64,000 nucleotides of DNA from Chitinispirillum alkaliphilum (GTDB taxonomy: Bacteria; Fibrobacterota; Chitinivibrionia; Chitinivibrionales; Chitinispirillaceae), in contig LDWW01000010.1 of the NCBI GenBank assembly GCA_001045525.1, positions 1-64,000 on the forward strand, given 5' to 3'. The notes beneath the pieces are model-generated. The model saw only the letters and a list, made by a program, of their open reading frames with translations, ran no database searches and was not told the DNA's origin. Shown one piece after another: positions 56,915 to 64,000 of the stretch (the first letter of the stretch is position 1; each line of letters begins with the position of its first letter). A program made the translations under genes and the position numbers.

Positions 56915-57071
56915 GCCTCTGTTTTCTGCTTCAAAACGCTAATACTACTCTAAATATTTCAGTATAAAGAAGAGTAATCATTTATCTCACAGGGGGATAG
57001 ATGCTATTTTTATTCTGGTTGTTGGTTTTCATATGTTTTTATTAACAGGTTTAGCTAAACGGAGCAATGTG

Positions 57072-58124
57072 GTGAAAAGAGTACTGGCGGCAATGAGTGG
57101 TGGTGTTGATTCTTCGGTCACAGCAGCACTTTTGAAAGAACAGGGTTATGAAGTCATTGGTGTGACAATGAAATTGCTGGATACAATGGATGTGTGTGAT
57201 GAGAGTCGGTCTTGCTGTGGTTACGATGCCGCGAGGGATGCAAAGGTGGTTGCAGATTCTCTGGGTATCCCGCACTATACGATCAATGCTGTAGAGGCCT
57301 TTAAGGAATGGGTTATTGACGATTTCGTAGGTGAATACACTCGTGGACGTACGCCTAATCCATGTATAAGATGTAACTACTTTTTAAAATTCGATTTTCT
57401 CATGAAGAAGGCACGGGAACTGGGGTGTGAGTTTCTTGCAACCGGGCATTATGCCATTATGGAAAACGGCACTCTTAGAAGGGGGGTTGATCAGGTGAAG
57501 GATCAATCCTACTTTCTATACCCTGTTTTTGCAAATGATCCCTGTAAAATTCTCTTTCCCCTTGGCAGAATGTGTAAAAGCGAGGTACGGGAAATTGCCG
57601 GAAGGTATAATCTCCTTACCGCCCAGAAAAAGGAGAGTCAGGACATATGCTTCATCCCCGATGGGGATTACGCCTCATTTCTGAAAGAGAAAAGGGACAT
57701 GGACGTTGTTCCCGGCTATATAGTTGATCTTGATGGCAACAGGGTAGGAACTCATCAGGGGGTTCAGTTCTATACTGTCGGTCAGCGAAAGGGGCTGGGG
57801 GCTTTGGGATGCAGAATGTATGTAAAAGAGATCAGGGTTAAGGAGAATGAGGTTGTGGTGGCGAGGGATGAACAGCTTTTCTGTGATGCCATTGAGATTG
57901 AGGAATTGTTGAGTCAGGAGGACCAAATCTCGGTTGGTGATCAGTTTCTTGCACAGGTAAGATACAGAAGTAAACCGGTTGGGGCTGTTGTAGAGGATTA
58001 TAGAGACGGAAAAATGGTATTGCGTTTTGATACTCCGGTGAGGGCGGTTGCACCCGGTCAGTCAGCAGTTCTTTACAGAGACGACGTGGTTGTAGCCGGA
58101 GGTCTTATTACAAGGGAAATTTAG
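57072..58124 (+). CDS. mnmA: tRNA-specific 2-thiouridylase
   Basis: 350 aa from GTG 57072, seven bases after GGAG (57061-57064); an in-frame ATG at 57033 would add 13 residues without homology. Thiolates U34 of Lys, Glu and Gln tRNAs using ATP and a persulfide. PP-loop SGGVDSS (9-15), catalytic Cys98 in PNPCIRC and Cys193 in ESQDICF, plus FYTVGQRKGL. The sulfur donor (IscS/TusA or SufS-type) is not linked directly, though sufS and sufE lie 4 kb downstream. Confidence 0.95.
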   Translation: MKRVLAAMSGGVDSSVTAALLKEQGYEVIGVTMKLLDTMDVCDESRSCCGYDAARDAKVVADSLGIPHYTINAVEAFKEWVIDDFVGEYTRGRTPNPCIRCNYFLKFDFLMKKARELGCEFLATGHYAIMENGTLRRGVDQVKDQSYFLYPVFANDPCKILFPLGRMCKSEVREIAGRYNLLTAQKKESQDICFIPDGDYASFLKEKRDMDVVPGYIVDLDGNRVGTHQGVQFYTVGQRKGLGALGCRMYVKEIRVKENEVVVARDEQLFCDAIEIEELLSQEDQISVGDQFLAQVRYRSKPVGAVVEDYRDGKMVLRFDTPVRAVAPGQSAVLYRDDVVVAGGLITREI

Positions 58125-58227
58125 GCTAAATCCTGTTGTCCATGGAACATCTGTTCATTTGTTGCGCAGTAGTTCTCTCTTCAATTTTCTGGTTTTATGA
58201 AAAGATTCTCCACCACCCTGTAGTGTG

Positions 58228-58251
58228 ATGCAGGAATTTTACCTCCTGCAT
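58228..58251. terminator. hairpin between convergent mnmA and fmdB-like genes
   Basis: ATGCAGGA (58228-58235) pairs perfectly with TCCTGCAT (58244-58251) around an eight-base loop. It lies between the 3' ends of two convergent genes; no T-tract is seen, so a terminator role is inferred. Confidence 0.4.
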
Positions 58252-58275
58252 GCTTCTATACTTTAGGCTACCTAC

Positions 58276-58512
58276 TCAGCCCTGTGGGCACCCTCCCTGC
58301 ATTGCCGCAGCACATGATGACATCCCGCTGCATCCCCCCGGACATGGCCCAGAAGGTGAGCTTCCCATGGAAATTGCCCCGATTGCACTCATGAGTTTGT
58401 CGGTTGCTATAGAATTGCAGGCTGGGCATGGGACTTTTTGGTTGAGATCCCCAGTGATCAGCTCTTCATAGGTGTGATTGCACTCAGTGCATCTGTATTC
58501 AAAAATCGGCAT
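58276..58512 (-). CDS. FmdB-type zinc-ribbon protein
   Basis: 78 aa. N-terminal zinc ribbon MPIFEYRCTECNHTYEEL with a second CPAC pair (Cys8, Cys11, Cys29, Cys32), the FmdB putative regulatory family. The last 25 residues are rich in Gly, Ser, Pro and Cys (GPCPGGCSGMSSC), as in many members. Function unknown; the family was named from a formamidase cluster. AGGTAG lies before its ATG. Confidence 0.88.
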   Translation of the reverse strand: MPIFEYRCTECNHTYEELITGDLNQKVPCPACNSIATDKLMSAIGAISMGSSPSGPCPGGCSGMSSCAAAMQGGCPQG

Positions 58513-58723
58513 ACTACCTCCAGATTAAGGTTTTCAAATAAACAGCACTACGATTACAGGAACAAGAAATTTAGTATATGGGTAAATTTGGTTCCACTTA
58601 TACACTGTATTCTGGGTGTAGTGGAATTTATAAATTAATATCAGGACAGGGTATTGGGAATGGTAATTGCTCTTTAAGGTTAGTGCAGTATTTCTTATCT
58701 GTTTTGAGAAAGGAGTGGTTTTT

Positions 58724-59041
58724 ATGTTTCAACCTTGGATAAGTTTATTGGCTGGATTGTGGGCGTTCTTTTCATCGTTTTCCGCTCCACTTCTTGTTCC
58801 GCTTAATTTTATCATAACCGGGTTGGTTTTGGCGGTTATGGGATTTTGGAGAGTTCAGCGGACCTGGCAGGGTGTAGTTAACGGGATATTGGGATTGTGG
58901 CTTGTGTTTTCAGGTTTTGTGCCGGCGCTTCAGACTCAGACCAATCTTCTGACAGTGGGAGTTGCGGCGGTGATAATCGCGGCCTGGCGTATAAGTGAGA
59001 CCAGAGCCCCAAGGCGTCATGCTGTTCGTGGTGCCCGTTAG
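58724..59041 (+). CDS. small membrane protein with SPW-like repeats
   Basis: 105 aa from ATG 58724, eight bases after AAAGGAG. Four hydrophobic segments arranged as two similar halves, each with a W, G and L-rich pattern (PWISLLAGLWAFFSS and VVNGILGLWLVFSGF), as in SPW-repeat proteins. A basic tail follows. Function unknown. It precedes the rhodanese/ergothioneine-like cluster by 130 bases and may not belong to it. Confidence 0.7.
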   Translation: MFQPWISLLAGLWAFFSSFSAPLLVPLNFIITGLVLAVMGFWRVQRTWQGVVNGILGLWLVFSGFVPALQTQTNLLTVGVAAVIIAAWRISETRAPRRHAVRGAR

Positions 59042-59173
59042 GGAGTGGGTGTGTGAGTTGATGTCTTTGTGGAATAGCATATGAAAAGAGAAAGTAAGCG
59101 GGTGTGGTCTGGAGCGGTTTGCTCCAGGCTGCGTCACGCACCTGTATAGATCAATTGTATTTGGAGGAAAGTC

Positions 59174-60451
59174 TTGGAGGAGATTACCACACCCCAGCTT
59201 CTGGAGCTGTTGGATGATCCGGAAGTGAAGATTATAGATGTGCGTCCAACTGAGGCATATAATGGGTGGAGAAATAAGGGCGAGAAAAGGGGAGGGCATA
59301 TAAAAACGGCAAAAAGTCTTCCGCTTAAATGGACCTCCTATTTCGACTGGCCAGAAATTGTAAAGGAAAAGAAAATAAGACCAGCTGACCGGTTGGTAAT
59401 TTATGGCTACAACAGAGATGAAGCCCAAAAGGTTGCATCCCTTTTCCTTAGGGCCGGATATCAAAACCTCTCTCTCTACGACCATTTTCTGCACCACTGG
59501 GACAAGGATCATAATCTCCCGGTCTCAAAACTGACCCGATACAAACAACTGGTCTCACCCGCTTGGCTCAGGCAGCTTATAAGTGACGGAACTGCATCCG
59601 GGTTTAACTCTGAGAGGTACTGTATCTGTCATTGCTATTATCGTGATTCGGGCAGTTATGACAAGGGACACATCCCCGGAGCAGTACCGCTTGACACAAA
59701 TTCTCTCGAATCTCCAATCACCTGGAATCGCAAAACCCCCGAAGAGATAAAAACAGCCCTTGAGCAGTTGGGTATAACTCATGACACAACCGTGGTGCTT
59801 TACGGCACCTACTCTTTTCCACGCAATGATGATCCTTTCCCCGGAAGCAGCGCAGGGCATCTGGGAGCAATGCGTTGCGCCCTTTTGATGCTCTATGCAG
59901 GGGTAGAGGATGTTCGTCTTCTCAATGGTGGATTTCAGGCCTGGACAGATGAGGGCTTTGAAATTTCAAAAGAGCATACTACACCTCGTGCTGTTGCTAG
60001 TTTTGGGATCACTGTACCAAAATACCCCCACCTTATGATCGATACCGAAGAGGCACGGAAATATTTACAATCAGAAGATAAGAATCTGGTATGTGTGCGG
60101 AGTTGGAGTGAGTATATAGGTGAGGTCAGCGGTTACAATTATATCAAAAAGAGGGGACGTATTCCCGGCGCTGTGTTTGCAGATTGTGGCAGCGATGCCT
60201 ATCATATGGAGAATTACAGAAATCCCGATCATACCACACGTGAATTTGGCGAAATACACTCTATGTGGGCCAACTCCGGTATCACCAAGGACAAGCATAA
60301 TGCTTTTTATTGTGGGACGGGATGGCGTGGGAGTGAGGCTTTTGTCAACGCCTGGCTTATGGGGTGGAAAAATATCTCTGTTTATGACGGAGGGTGGTAT
60401 GAATGGAGCAGTGATGAAACAAATCCGACTGAAACTGGTGTTCCAGACTGA
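59174..60451 (+). CDS. eanB: EanB-like triple-rhodanese sulfurtransferase
   Basis: 425 aa, TTG start seven bases after GGAGG. Three rhodanese folds: residues 1-115 and about 125-265 lack the catalytic Cys (IYGYNRDEA; VVLYGTYSF), while the third, about 290-415, has it: Cys380 in the loop YCGTGWRGSEAF. This size, the single active Cys in the last domain and the CGTGWR loop match what I recall of EanB of Chlorobium limicola (Cys412), which puts sulfur on the imidazole C2 of trimethylhistidine to give ergothioneine without oxygen. Counting back by the spacing of its Tyr353 gives Tyr321 here. The next gene is the matching histidine methyltransferase. A general sulfurtransferase role cannot be excluded. 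Confidence 0.82.
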   Translation: MEEITTPQLLELLDDPEVKIIDVRPTEAYNGWRNKGEKRGGHIKTAKSLPLKWTSYFDWPEIVKEKKIRPADRLVIYGYNRDEAQKVASLFLRAGYQNLSLYDHFLHHWDKDHNLPVSKLTRYKQLVSPAWLRQLISDGTASGFNSERYCICHCYYRDSGSYDKGHIPGAVPLDTNSLESPITWNRKTPEEIKTALEQLGITHDTTVVLYGTYSFPRNDDPFPGSSAGHLGAMRCALLMLYAGVEDVRLLNGGFQAWTDEGFEISKEHTTPRAVASFGITVPKYPHLMIDTEEARKYLQSEDKNLVCVRSWSEYIGEVSGYNYIKKRGRIPGAVFADCGSDAYHMENYRNPDHTTREFGEIHSMWANSGITKDKHNAFYCGTGWRGSEAFVNAWLMGWKNISVYDGGWYEWSSDETNPTETGVPD

Positions 60452-60483
60452 AAATATGTGAAAACCTGATATTGGAATTGAAT

Positions 60484-61491
60484 ATGGACTATTCTGAAAC
60501 TGCACTGATTTCCGACAAAATAACAATTAAGAATGCATTCAGAGAAATCAAAGCTGAGGACATCGTCTCTTCTGTACTGCAAGGGCTTCTCTCTGCTCCA
60601 AGGCACATATCGAGTATGCATTTTTATGATACCGCAGGCTCAAAACTGTTCGAAAAGATAACTGCCCTCCCCGAATACTATCTGACCTCATCAGAAAAAA
60701 AAATGCTTCAGAAAAATGGCGCCTCGATTTCGGAAAAATTTCTCAACAGAGATGTTGTTGAGTTGGGGAGCGGGGATTGTTCAAAAATTTCTATCCTTTT
60801 TGACGGTCTCAGTGCGGATGAACTTAAATCGATCAGATATATACCACTGGACATAAGTTTTGAAGCAGTCAGGCAATCGGCTTTGACGCTTAACTCCAGA
60901 TACCCGGACTTAATAGTGTCGGGGATAATTGCAGACTTTACAAAACAGCTTTCTGAGATACCAAAAGACAAAAGTCGGTACTTCTTGCTGTTAGGTAGTA
61001 CAATTGGGAATTTTACACCAGAACAGTGCTGCAGTTTTTTGACACTTTTGTCGCAAAATATGGGGCCAGATGATTTATTCCTGATTGGAATAGACTTGGT
61101 TAAGGATGAAACCGTTATTCACAAGGCCTACAACGACAGCCAGCTCGTAACTGCAGCTTTCAACCGAAATATACTCAATGTAATTAATTCTATTGCTAAA
61201 ACGAATTTCAAGCCCGATTTGTTTAATCATTATGCATTCTTTAATCACATTTACTCTCGTGTAGAGATGCACCTTCGGGCATCTGAGGATATGTGTGTGT
61301 GTTCACCCTACCTTTCTCAGTCTCTACTCCTGAAAAAGGGTGATATGATTCACACGGAAAATTCCTATAAGTTTACGATGCCTCAAATTTGTAAGATAGT
61401 TGAATCTGCCGGGTTAGCAGTTAACTCCTGTATTTCGGATAAAAATAGATACTACTCTCTGGTGACAGTTTCAAAAAAAAGACAGGTATAA
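60484..61491 (+). CDS. eanA: EgtD/EanA-type L-histidine N-alpha-methyltransferase
   Basis: 335 aa from ATG 60484, seven bases after GGA; TTG 60472 is an alternative. Makes N,N,N-trimethylhistidine (hercynine) with SAM. SAM motif ELGSG (93-97), then PLDIS (Asp123), GSTIGNF (Asn176), KAYND (Tyr216) and HTENSYKF (Glu292, Ser294). These sit ten residues after the substrate-binding Asn166, Tyr206, Glu282 and Ser284 I recall for Mycobacterium EgtD, with no gap, so histidine methylation is well supported. No egtB (oxygen-dependent) gene is near; eanB is 32 bases upstream and sufS 4 bases downstream. The symbol follows the anaerobic pathway. Confidence 0.9.
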   Translation: MDYSETALISDKITIKNAFREIKAEDIVSSVLQGLLSAPRHISSMHFYDTAGSKLFEKITALPEYYLTSSEKKMLQKNGASISEKFLNRDVVELGSGDCSKISILFDGLSADELKSIRYIPLDISFEAVRQSALTLNSRYPDLIVSGIIADFTKQLSEIPKDKSRYFLLLGSTIGNFTPEQCCSFLTLLSQNMGPDDLFLIGIDLVKDETVIHKAYNDSQLVTAAFNRNILNVINSIAKTNFKPDLFNHYAFFNHIYSRVEMHLRASEDMCVCSPYLSQSLLLKKGDMIHTENSYKFTMPQICKIVESAGLAVNSCISDKNRYYSLVTVSKKRQV

Positions 61492-61495
61492 AAAA

Positions 61496-62713
61496 ATGGC
61501 TTTGGTTGAGAAGGTTAGAGAAGATTTTCCGATTCTGAATCGTAAAATAAATGGGAATCCATTGGTTTACCTGGACAATGCAGCAACAACTCAAAAACCG
61601 ATTCAGGTTCTCGAAAAAGTAAAATCCTTTTATGAAAACTGGAACAGCAATATTCACCGGGGTGTACATTGCCTTAGTGAAAAAGCCGGAGAACTGTATG
61701 AGGAGTCAAGAAAAACGGTCAGGGATTTCATCAATGCCAAGGATGAGAAAGAGATTGTTTTCACCCGAGGTACAACTGAAGCAGTTAACCTTGTGGCCAG
61801 CTGTTTTGGGGAAAAGTTTGTTGAAGAGGGTGATGAGATAGTTATTTCAGAAATGGAGCATCACTCAAATCTTATCCCCTGGCAAAATCTCTGCAAAAAG
61901 AGAAATGCACACTTAAAAACGGTTCCTTTTAATGATGAGGGAGCTTTGCAAATTGATCATCTAAAATCGGTGATTTCCTCCAAAACAAAACTTATTTCAG
62001 TTACCTATATATCGAACGTCTTTGGCCTGTTAAATCCGGTAAAGGAGATCGTTTCAATTGCACACAAGCATAATATCCCGGTTTTTATTGATGGGGCTCA
62101 GGCTGTTCCTCATACGCCTATAGATGTAATTGATCTGAATTGTGATTTTTTCGCCTTTTCCGGACATAAACTTTATGCTGAAACCGGGGTTGGCGTGCTT
62201 TACGGAAAAGAAGATTGGCTGAACCGGTTGCCTCCTTATCAGACAGGTGGGGGAATGATCGACTCTGTTGATTTGCACACTACGGTTATCTCTGAAATTC
62301 CACAAAAGTTTGAAGCCGGTACTCCAAATATCAGTGGGGTATTGAGTCTTGGTGCTGCAATAGAATACATAGAATCTGTTGGGGTTGAGCAGATCTGCAG
62401 TTATGAGCAGGAATTGCTTCAGTATATGATACAAAAACTTAAGTCAATTGGTAGTATAAGAATCTTCGGCTCTGTTGAGCAGAGAAATGGAATAGTGTCT
62501 TTCAACCTGAAAGACACAAACTCTTACGATGTTGCTTTACTTTTGAATCAGTCTGGCATTGCGGTCCGCTCCGGATCCCATTGTGCACAGCCTTTAATGA
62601 AACATTACGGCGTAAGAGGAATGGTGCGTGCCAGTCTGGCCTTTTACAATACAAAAGAGGAAATTGATCGGTTTATACAGTCGATAGCCAGAGCAGAATC
62701 AATTCTTTTATGA
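61496..62713 (+). CDS. sufS: SufS-type cysteine desulfurase
   Basis: 405 aa class V aminotransferase-fold PLP enzyme that takes sulfur from cysteine. PLP Lys225 (SGHKLY), YLDNAATTQKP, EMEHHSNLIPW, and the persulfide-forming Cys363 in RSGSHCAQPLM, the group II (SufS) form. It begins four bases after eanA and is followed after nine bases by a SufE, its usual activator. There is no sufBCD here, so the pair may serve the adjacent ergothioneine-like route, mnmA, or general Fe-S needs. Confidence 0.95.
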   Translation: MALVEKVREDFPILNRKINGNPLVYLDNAATTQKPIQVLEKVKSFYENWNSNIHRGVHCLSEKAGELYEESRKTVRDFINAKDEKEIVFTRGTTEAVNLVASCFGEKFVEEGDEIVISEMEHHSNLIPWQNLCKKRNAHLKTVPFNDEGALQIDHLKSVISSKTKLISVTYISNVFGLLNPVKEIVSIAHKHNIPVFIDGAQAVPHTPIDVIDLNCDFFAFSGHKLYAETGVGVLYGKEDWLNRLPPYQTGGGMIDSVDLHTTVISEIPQKFEAGTPNISGVLSLGAAIEYIESVGVEQICSYEQELLQYMIQKLKSIGSIRIFGSVEQRNGIVSFNLKDTNSYDVALLLNQSGIAVRSGSHCAQPLMKHYGVRGMVRASLAFYNTKEEIDRFIQSIARAESILL

Positions 62714-62722
62714 GGTAGTTTG

Positions 62723-63142
62723 ATGACTATAAACGAAAACCAGAACAGGATTATCAAAACGTTTGAATCTTTAAATGATTGGTTTGACCGTTATGAGTAT
62801 CTTGTGAAATTGGGTAAGGAGCATGCACCAGAGCATGAAAAAGTAAGAACAGAAGAGAATTTATTGAATGGTTGTCAGTCGGGGGTTTGGATTTATAAAG
62901 AGGTCAGGGAAGGGAAAGTTTTTTACAAGGGTGATAGTGATTCTGTTATTATAAGGGGTATACTTGTATTATTAATGGAAATACTCAGCGATAATTATCC
63001 TATTGACATAGTAAATGCTGATCTGTACTTTGTTAAAGAAATTGGGTTAAATAACAGTCTTTCACCTGTAAGAAAGGATGGTATGAGCTCAATAATTAAG
63101 CAGATGAAAACATTGGCCAGAAATTGCATATATCCAAGCTGA
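62723..63142 (+). CDS. sufE: SufE-family sulfur acceptor
   Basis: 139 aa from ATG 62723 (GAGGTAG upstream). Conserved LLNGCQSGVW with the acceptor Cys51, and RGILVLLMEILS. Takes the persulfide from SufS and passes it on. Last gene of the eanB-eanA-sufS-sufE unit; the next gene converges with only three bases between stops. Confidence 0.93.
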   Translation: MTINENQNRIIKTFESLNDWFDRYEYLVKLGKEHAPEHEKVRTEENLLNGCQSGVWIYKEVREGKVFYKGDSDSVIIRGILVLLMEILSDNYPIDIVNADLYFVKEIGLNNSLSPVRKDGMSSIIKQMKTLARNCIYPS

Positions 63143-63145
63143 AAT

Positions 63146-63586
63146 TCATGAAATAAGAGGCAGGCAGCATTTCTTGAATTTTTTGTTGCTTCCACATGGG
63201 CAGAGTGAGTTACGATTGACATCGCTGTATTTTTTTACAAAAGTTTCTCCCTTAAAGGAGCCGTCACTGCGTAAGCGGGATAGAAAGCTATTACTTTGGG
63301 ATTGTATTGAGGATTTCCACTCCCCGGCCTGAGGAAATTTGCCTGTGGTGTTTAGGTATTCACAATACTCTGTAATAAGATATGGAATACTCTTTTTCAC
63401 TTCGGAAGGAACGCTCAGTTTCCCCATAGCCGTCAATGAGTCATGGATATCAGTGCTTGAATTGTTCTCTATTATCCACGACCAGTTAAGAAGTATGGGT
63501 TCTGCGTACTCTTTCACTGAGGGGTCAAGAAATAAGAAGTGTTCAGAGGTGCAGTAATCGGTAACATATTGAGTTAGCTCTGACAT
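63146..63586 (-). CDS. SEC-C motif protein
   Basis: 146 aa from ATG 63586 (a TTG at 63595 is closer to an AAGGA and also possible). The C-terminal zinc-binding SEC-C motif is clear: RNSLCPCGSNKKFKKCC. The first 115 residues are helical and not recognised. SEC-C motifs occur at the end of SecA and in many small proteins of unknown role. Confidence 0.8.
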   Translation of the reverse strand: MSELTQYVTDYCTSEHFLFLDPSVKEYAEPILLNWSWIIENNSSTDIHDSLTAMGKLSVPSEVKKSIPYLITEYCEYLNTTGKFPQAGEWKSSIQSQSNSFLSRLRSDGSFKGETFVKKYSDVNRNSLCPCGSNKKFKKCCLPLIS

Positions 63587-63657
63587 ATGATGCAAAAAAT
63601 CCTTAAGGGAAGTCTGAACAATATATAACTGAAACAGACTTCCGGGTTAGGGGCAAT

Positions 63658-64000
63658 TTACAATTTTTTATCAAAAGAGCGTTCATAAAGAGCAAGAATC
63701 GCTTTTTGACTTCCTTCGGACAGATTGCGGGATCCGGTACCACAGAATGCCTGTCTTGATATAACCGGTTCATCTTCTCTCCACTCAGCCTGCATCCATG
63801 TGAACCATTTGTTTACGGTTTTATCAAAAACATGGACATCGCGATTGAAGAATTTCCCAAGCTCAACCGCCCACCCGGTTCCGCCTTTAACGGTATTGTC
63901 GGCCTGAATTTCACCGATTGCGAAAATCTGTTCACTTTTGTGCACCATGTGGAAAATCGACTGTAAAACACTTTTGATTTTTTCCGAGTTGCTGTATTTT
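63658..64000 (-). CDS. SLOG-like (YspA/TIGR-type) nucleotide-binding protein, 3' part only
   Basis: The frame is open to the window edge, so the N-terminal part lies outside; ATG 63948 is probably internal. Visible features are IFAIGEIQ, KGGTGWAVELGKFF, VHVFDKTVNKWFTW and a closing FCGTGSRNLSEGSQKAIL, a pattern I associate with the SLOG/YpsA-type Rossmann proteins found in phages and defence islands. Role unknown; the family binds or processes nucleotide-derived ligands. Subfamily uncertain. Confidence 0.6.
   Translation of the reverse strand, partial: KYSNSEKIKSVLQSIFHMVHKSEQIFAIGEIQADNTVKGGTGWAVELGKFFNRDVHVFDKTVNKWFTWMQAEWREDEPVISRQAFCGTGSRNLSEGSQKAILALYERSFDKKL

Follow-up and report, generated by a model that had tools for sequence, protein, structure and literature searches.

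How EanB obtains its sulfur inside the cell is unsettled, and a locus of Chitinispirillum alkaliphilum that bears on the question was analyzed within a 64,000-nucleotide stretch of DNA, here called the window (contig LDWW01000010.1, positions 1 to 64,000). Four complete open reading frames follow one another on the + strand at 59174-63142 in the order eanB-eanA-sufS-sufE, with gaps of 32 bases between eanB and eanA, 4 between eanA and sufS, and 6 between sufS and sufE. As judged from the sequence, these genes most likely constitute an operon that is self-sufficient for making ergothioneine without oxygen, in which sulfur would travel from cysteine via SufS and SufE to EanB, either directly or by way of polysulfide. 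We infer the enzyme activities, the contact between SufE and EanB and the product, and the operon-like arrangement suggests co-transcription of all four genes. The EanAB pathway itself is known, and its widely conserved sufS-sufE extension is what appears to be new. The initial annotation had placed EanA and EanB in green sulfur bacteria, which holds for Chlorobium limicola and is too narrow, as eanAB pairs are on record for over 20 anaerobes, bacterial and archaeal (PMC9103826), and EanA/EanB have been noted in Methanococcoides (PMC7278568). No description of a sufS-sufE extension of eanBA was found in the literature searched, with Burn et al. 2017 and two ACS Catalysis papers on EanB lying outside it, and no paper of that literature contained EanB and SufS together.

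In order to establish how far the arrangement extends, EanB relatives were collected by a scan of 84,980 species genomes, and the survey covered the 80 closest loci (of at least 557) as well as relatives within the window's own phylum. This neighborhood survey, suggested in the initial annotation, identified eanB-eanA-sufS-sufE in the same order and on the same strand in 18 loci besides the window. The bacterial sources were Fibrobacterota, Planctomycetota, Aminicenantes, Omnitrophota, Elusimicrobiota and one metagenome-assembled genome (MAG) labelled Nealsonbacteria, and the archaeal sources were a Thermoplasmatales archaeon (Thermoplasmatota) and Methanolobus, Methanosalsum and Methanohalophilus (Methanosarcinia). 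Because 18 further loci from several bacterial phyla and from archaea share it, the four-gene arrangement is far beyond chance. Single phylum labels may be wrong, since several loci come from metagenome bins that share one sediment as their source. Strain names without a MAG label are attached to the records of Methanolobus halotolerans, Methanosalsum natronophilum and Methanohalophilus, and two further carriers (L017 and L027) are assembled at chromosome length. Two cases were partial: a Thermoplasmata contig breaks off within sufS, and in one Fibrobacterota locus no eanA separates eanB from sufS. When the families encoded within 6 kb of eanB were clustered, eanA aside, SufE was present at 23 loci and SufS at 21, and the next family at 8. 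Within Methanosarcinia, eanB-eanA-sufS was present in 28 of the 29 EanB-positive genomes, and the contig of the 29th stops just after eanA. In one Methanosarcinia genome eanA seems to be divided between two frames (L249:2757-3716) within a cluster that is otherwise intact, which would reflect a frameshift or a sequencing error.

The distribution and phylogeny of the sulfur-transfer proteins also connect them to EanB. A same-order set of about 40 genomes (G000-G039), which belong to the window's order as far as listed kinship shows, contained SufE in exactly the six genomes with EanB (Fisher p = 2.6e-7, kinship ignored). Fibrobacter-type genomes, which belong to the phylum and not to that order, have a different SufE that does not adjoin eanB. 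The SufE-linked EanBs form one clade (99/87) separate from C. limicola EanB, and a single clade (SH-aLRT 99) likewise unites the EanB-linked SufEs, set apart from the SUF-operon SufEs found where a genome has eanBA alone; both SufS and SufE lie outside the SUF-operon groups compared. Pairwise distances correlated with r = 0.80 for EanB and SufE and r = 0.50 for EanB and SufS, values that may partly reflect the shared ancestry of the hosts. At seven loci eanB-sufE occurred without sufS. The corresponding genomes encode a full SufB/SufD pair in six cases and, in the remaining one, only one copy at the edge of its contig; SufS was found elsewhere in six of the seven. Among the 21 genomes with sufS in the cluster, none has a SufB/SufD pair. 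The simplest reading of these sequence patterns is that SufE would be the constant partner of EanB, with sufS carried along where the host is without a SUF-type SufS. The link between the SufS-SufE pair and EanB that had been proposed for the window alone is now supported by conserved gene order, co-occurrence within the order, absence of SufB/SufD and clade structure.

In the proposed pathway, EanA would methylate histidine three times to yield hercynine, and SufS would convert the sulfur of cysteine into an enzyme-bound persulfide. SufE would take this persulfide from SufS, stimulating SufS as well, and the sulfur would then reach Cys380 of EanB either by transpersulfidation from SufE or as short-lived polysulfide arising from SufS-SufE. 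Finally, EanB would transfer the sulfur to the imidazole ring of hercynine at C2, and Tyr321 (equivalent to Tyr353 of the C. limicola enzyme) would serve as proton donor/acceptor. These steps are modelled on the enzymology of C. limicola EanB, EgtD and Escherichia coli SufS-SufE combined with the gene arrangement, and the last protein-to-protein step is a presumed one.

For that last step, we tentatively propose, at a little under an even chance, that SufE, once charged by its dedicated SufS, reaches into the EanB tunnel with its persulfide cysteine and hands the sulfur straight to Cys380, making SufE the physiological donor in this clade. E. coli IscS drives EanB in vitro (PMC9103826), and further precedents are the transfer of sulfur from E. 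coli IscS to YnjE (PMC8931425) and the unrelated ergothioneine synthase MES, which has a built-in cysteine desulfurase (PMC9516567). The positions that most strongly distinguish linked from unlinked EanBs are mostly in the second rhodanese domain, with Asn376 near the catalytic loop in addition, and may serve as a lead for a SufE docking surface. Such a relay would represent a protein-to-protein, cysteine-based route to ergothioneine carried as one transferable block across bacteria and archaea, whereas the donor accepted so far is polysulfide.

Several points weigh against the proposed pathway. Cys412 of C. limicola EanB reportedly lies at the bottom of a 13 angstrom tunnel closed to IscS, and polysulfide is a competent direct donor; polysulfide has been argued to be the direct donor of EanB because the active site is buried (PMC9103826). 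Comparison of linked and unlinked EanBs revealed no newly invariant cysteine in the SufE-linked proteins, leaving the idea of an added relay cysteine unsupported. In other organisms SufE also takes part in general SufS chemistry, and the SufS-SufE pair is not required by every EanB, because many EanBs have neither gene adjacent.

The alternative that survives best states that ergothioneine is made, with EanB charged only by diffusible polysulfide or sulfide, and that SufS-SufE raises the local pool of sulfane sulfur and never docks. The acceptance of polysulfide as a direct substrate and the buried active site of the C. limicola enzyme (PMC9103826) are consistent with it, as is the lack of a new invariant relay cysteine in the SufE-linked EanBs. 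We regard it as a real possibility from which we nonetheless lean away; it is a sub-case of the operon explanation given at the outset, and the confidence placed in the two overlaps. It does not account for SufE staying beside eanB even in clusters without sufS, or for a dedicated SufE clade that tracks EanB (r = 0.80). On the basis of these two observations, a specific carrier fits better than a general sulfur source.

A very unlikely alternative is that SufS and SufE work in iron-sulfur assembly or in the thiolation of tRNA (with MnmA, for instance) and stand beside eanBA by coincidence. SufS and SufE are usually part of iron-sulfur assembly, and mnmA, encoding a sulfur-using tRNA 2-thiouridylase, lies at 57033-58124, about 1 kb upstream of the cluster. 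The product of sufS (61496..62713, + strand, 405 aa, ATG start) is a predicted group II cysteine desulfurase that scored 578.1 bits against TIGR01979 (cut-off 475.1), and alignment with E. coli SufS/CsdA places its pyridoxal phosphate lysine in SGHKLY and its persulfide cysteine in SHCA. The product of sufE (62720..63142, + strand, 140 aa) is a predicted persulfide carrier and desulfurase activator that scored 129.4 bits against PF02657 (cut-off 27), with a cysteine in GCQS that aligns with Cys51 of E. coli SufE; translation may start at the TTG at 62720 or, just as likely, at the ATG at 62723. They are the sole SufS-type protein at 1e-90 and the sole SufE of the genome (assembly of 4.43 Mb, 98.9% complete), which encodes two NifS/IscS-type desulfurases elsewhere. 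SufB/SufD were searched for as SUFBD_core matches, with none in the genome and positives in 14/14 control genomes in the same search. Given a sole SufE, a sole SufS-type desulfurase and the absence of SufB/SufD, the pair stands outside any SUF iron-sulfur system here. The housekeeping role is further opposed by the lack of SufE in the EanB-negative genomes of the same order and by the retention of sufS-sufE beside eanB in other loci, where mnmA is beside eanB in none of those surveyed. A functional link between the cluster and mnmA was likewise dropped because the mnmA neighborhood is not conserved in other loci.

A further alternative concerns eanB itself (59174..60451, + strand, 425 aa, TTG start), the predicted triple-rhodanese ergothioneine synthase. 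Its product could be a YnjE-type sulfurtransferase for another acceptor, such as molybdopterin synthase or similar, with the methyltransferase making only hercynine. The initial annotation relied on an EanB-like CGTGWR loop with Cys380; the loop (FYCGTGWR) and the cysteine are indeed present, and the catalytic residues of the C. limicola enzyme are retained as Cys380 (Cys412), Tyr321 (Tyr353), Thr382 (Thr414) and Arg385 (Arg417). However, E. coli YnjE has the identical FYCGTGWR loop, and the equivalents of Cys412, Tyr353 and Arg417 are found in 7/7 YnjE-like proteins compared. Because YnjE-type proteins share them, the CGTGWR loop, the catalytic cysteine, Tyr353 and Arg417 are not diagnostic of EanB, and the loop is not decisive alone. 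Greater discrimination came from phmmer, in which the window protein matched the C. limicola EanB structure 6ktv with 581 bits over 422 residues without gaps and YnjE with 300 bits; identity was about 59-60% to C. limicola EanB and 36-42% to seven YnjE-like proteins. EanB-specific positions were those that are invariant or almost invariant across 85 EanB-type sequences and that no YnjE-like sequence shows, and the window protein has 14/14 of them. In a bootstrapped tree the YnjE-like proteins separated at 100/99 and the window protein was placed among the EanBs, with C. limicola EanB inside the same group relative to the YnjE split. Grouping of the rhodanese, which had been named beforehand as a test, is thus with EanB and not with ordinary YnjE-type sulfurtransferases. 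Together with the adjacent EgtD homologue, these results make a YnjE-type function highly improbable, and the EanB assignment is supported by EanB-specific residues and phylogeny rather than by the loop.

The remaining gene, eanA (60484..61491, + strand, 335 aa, ATG start), encodes a predicted EgtD-type histidine N-alpha-trimethyltransferase. It scored 318.5 bits against the NCBIfam EgtD model TIGR03438 (cut-off 290.9) and is the sole Methyltransf_33 match in the genome. The initial annotation had credited this protein with the histidine-binding residues of EgtD, and in a direct EgtD comparison all ten positions that we take, on the basis of EgtD structures, to form the pocket (Tyr39, Phe47, Tyr56, Gly161, Asn166, Tyr206, Thr213, Met252, Glu282 and Ser284 in mycobacterial numbering), are identical in EanA. 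Domain and family scores, alignments and the EanB tree therefore bear out all four gene identities first assigned by reading the translations. The reported absence of egtB extends to the whole genome, in which the best EgtB score among seven FGE-sulfatase proteins was 93.7 (cut-off 360); an EgtB among them was ruled out, as only the C-terminal part of the model matched and the EgtB N-terminal half was missing. An MES-type fusion of a desulfurase with a metallopterin module (over 1100 aa) was also not found, the Aminotran_5 matches of the genome lying in frames of <=495 aa. Group II cysteine desulfurases can act on selenocysteine, a promiscuity that is well established. Synthesis of selenoneine or of a mixed sulfur/selenium product by the cluster is scarcely credible, given that neighbor clustering found no recurrent selenium gene beside the cluster and that EanB did not yield selenoneine when its synthesis was attempted (PMC9103826).

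Compared with known systems, the cluster shares with the C. limicola pair (Clim_1148/Clim_1149) both enzymes, including their catalytic residues, as well as adjacent genes and independence from oxygen. It differs in that its predicted operon continues with sufS and sufE and in that the SufE-linked EanBs are a separate clade; no desulfurase adjacent to C. limicola eanAB is described in the literature searched. MES of Caldithrix abyssi is likewise anaerobic and takes cysteine sulfur via a dedicated desulfurase tied to the ergothioneine enzyme, but it is one fused metallopterin/NifS-like protein, whereas separate SufS and SufE proteins would serve a rhodanese here. The IscS-YnjE relay of E. coli, which acts in molybdenum cofactor synthesis, also has a cysteine desulfurase feeding a triple-rhodanese protein, and differs in its desulfurase class, in the possible intermediate role of SufE, in the hercynine acceptor and in the membership of the rhodanese in the EanB rather than the YnjE clade. 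The SUF system (SufBCDSE) has SufS and SufE with the same catalytic residues, but SufB/SufD are absent here and both proteins fall outside the SUF-operon groups.

A dedicated SufS-SufE pair that accompanies EanB across bacteria and archaea suggests that the sulfur comes from cysteine and that SufE is the partner, and the concrete proteins described here make the sulfur-donor question testable. The survey also enlarges the group of anaerobes with predicted ergothioneine synthesis, which now includes culturable methanogens; as of 2020, ergothioneine was undetected in archaea (PMC7278568). Additionally, the cluster offers a matched sulfur-supply module for anaerobic ergothioneine production.

Across the cluster, Pfam identified three rhodanese domains followed by Methyltransf_33, Aminotran_5 and SufE. 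A likely ribosome-binding site, GGAGG, precedes the TTG start of eanB (59157..59180, + strand), as read from the sequence. A scan of 58000-63700 showed no excess of promoters over shuffled sequences and no + strand terminator after sufE, which is followed by a convergent SEC-C gene (63146-63595, - strand). Upstream of eanB lie a short SPW-domain gene and mnmA.

Other features were observed in the surveyed neighborhoods and genomes. In eight loci without sufS/sufE (e.g. L039:15-443), a DUF427 gene immediately precedes eanB. One genome labelled Caldithrix and one of Melioribacteraceae each encode a two-domain rhodanese followed directly by a divergent SufE-like gene, with 58 and 55 bits (L136:550-1920 and L215:545-1896), a pairing unrelated to EanB. 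The NifS-type desulfurase of the C. alkaliphilum genome (L222:2314-4331, G000 contig 44) adjoins an apparent NadA quinolinate synthase, and an assignment of this neighbor as NifU/IscU was rejected because it resembles NadA and not a scaffold protein. Finally, Methanohalophilus-type genomes contain a second, distant SufS-like gene (26-29% identity) upstream of the block (L087:8763-9302, L231:271-795 and L241:275-799).

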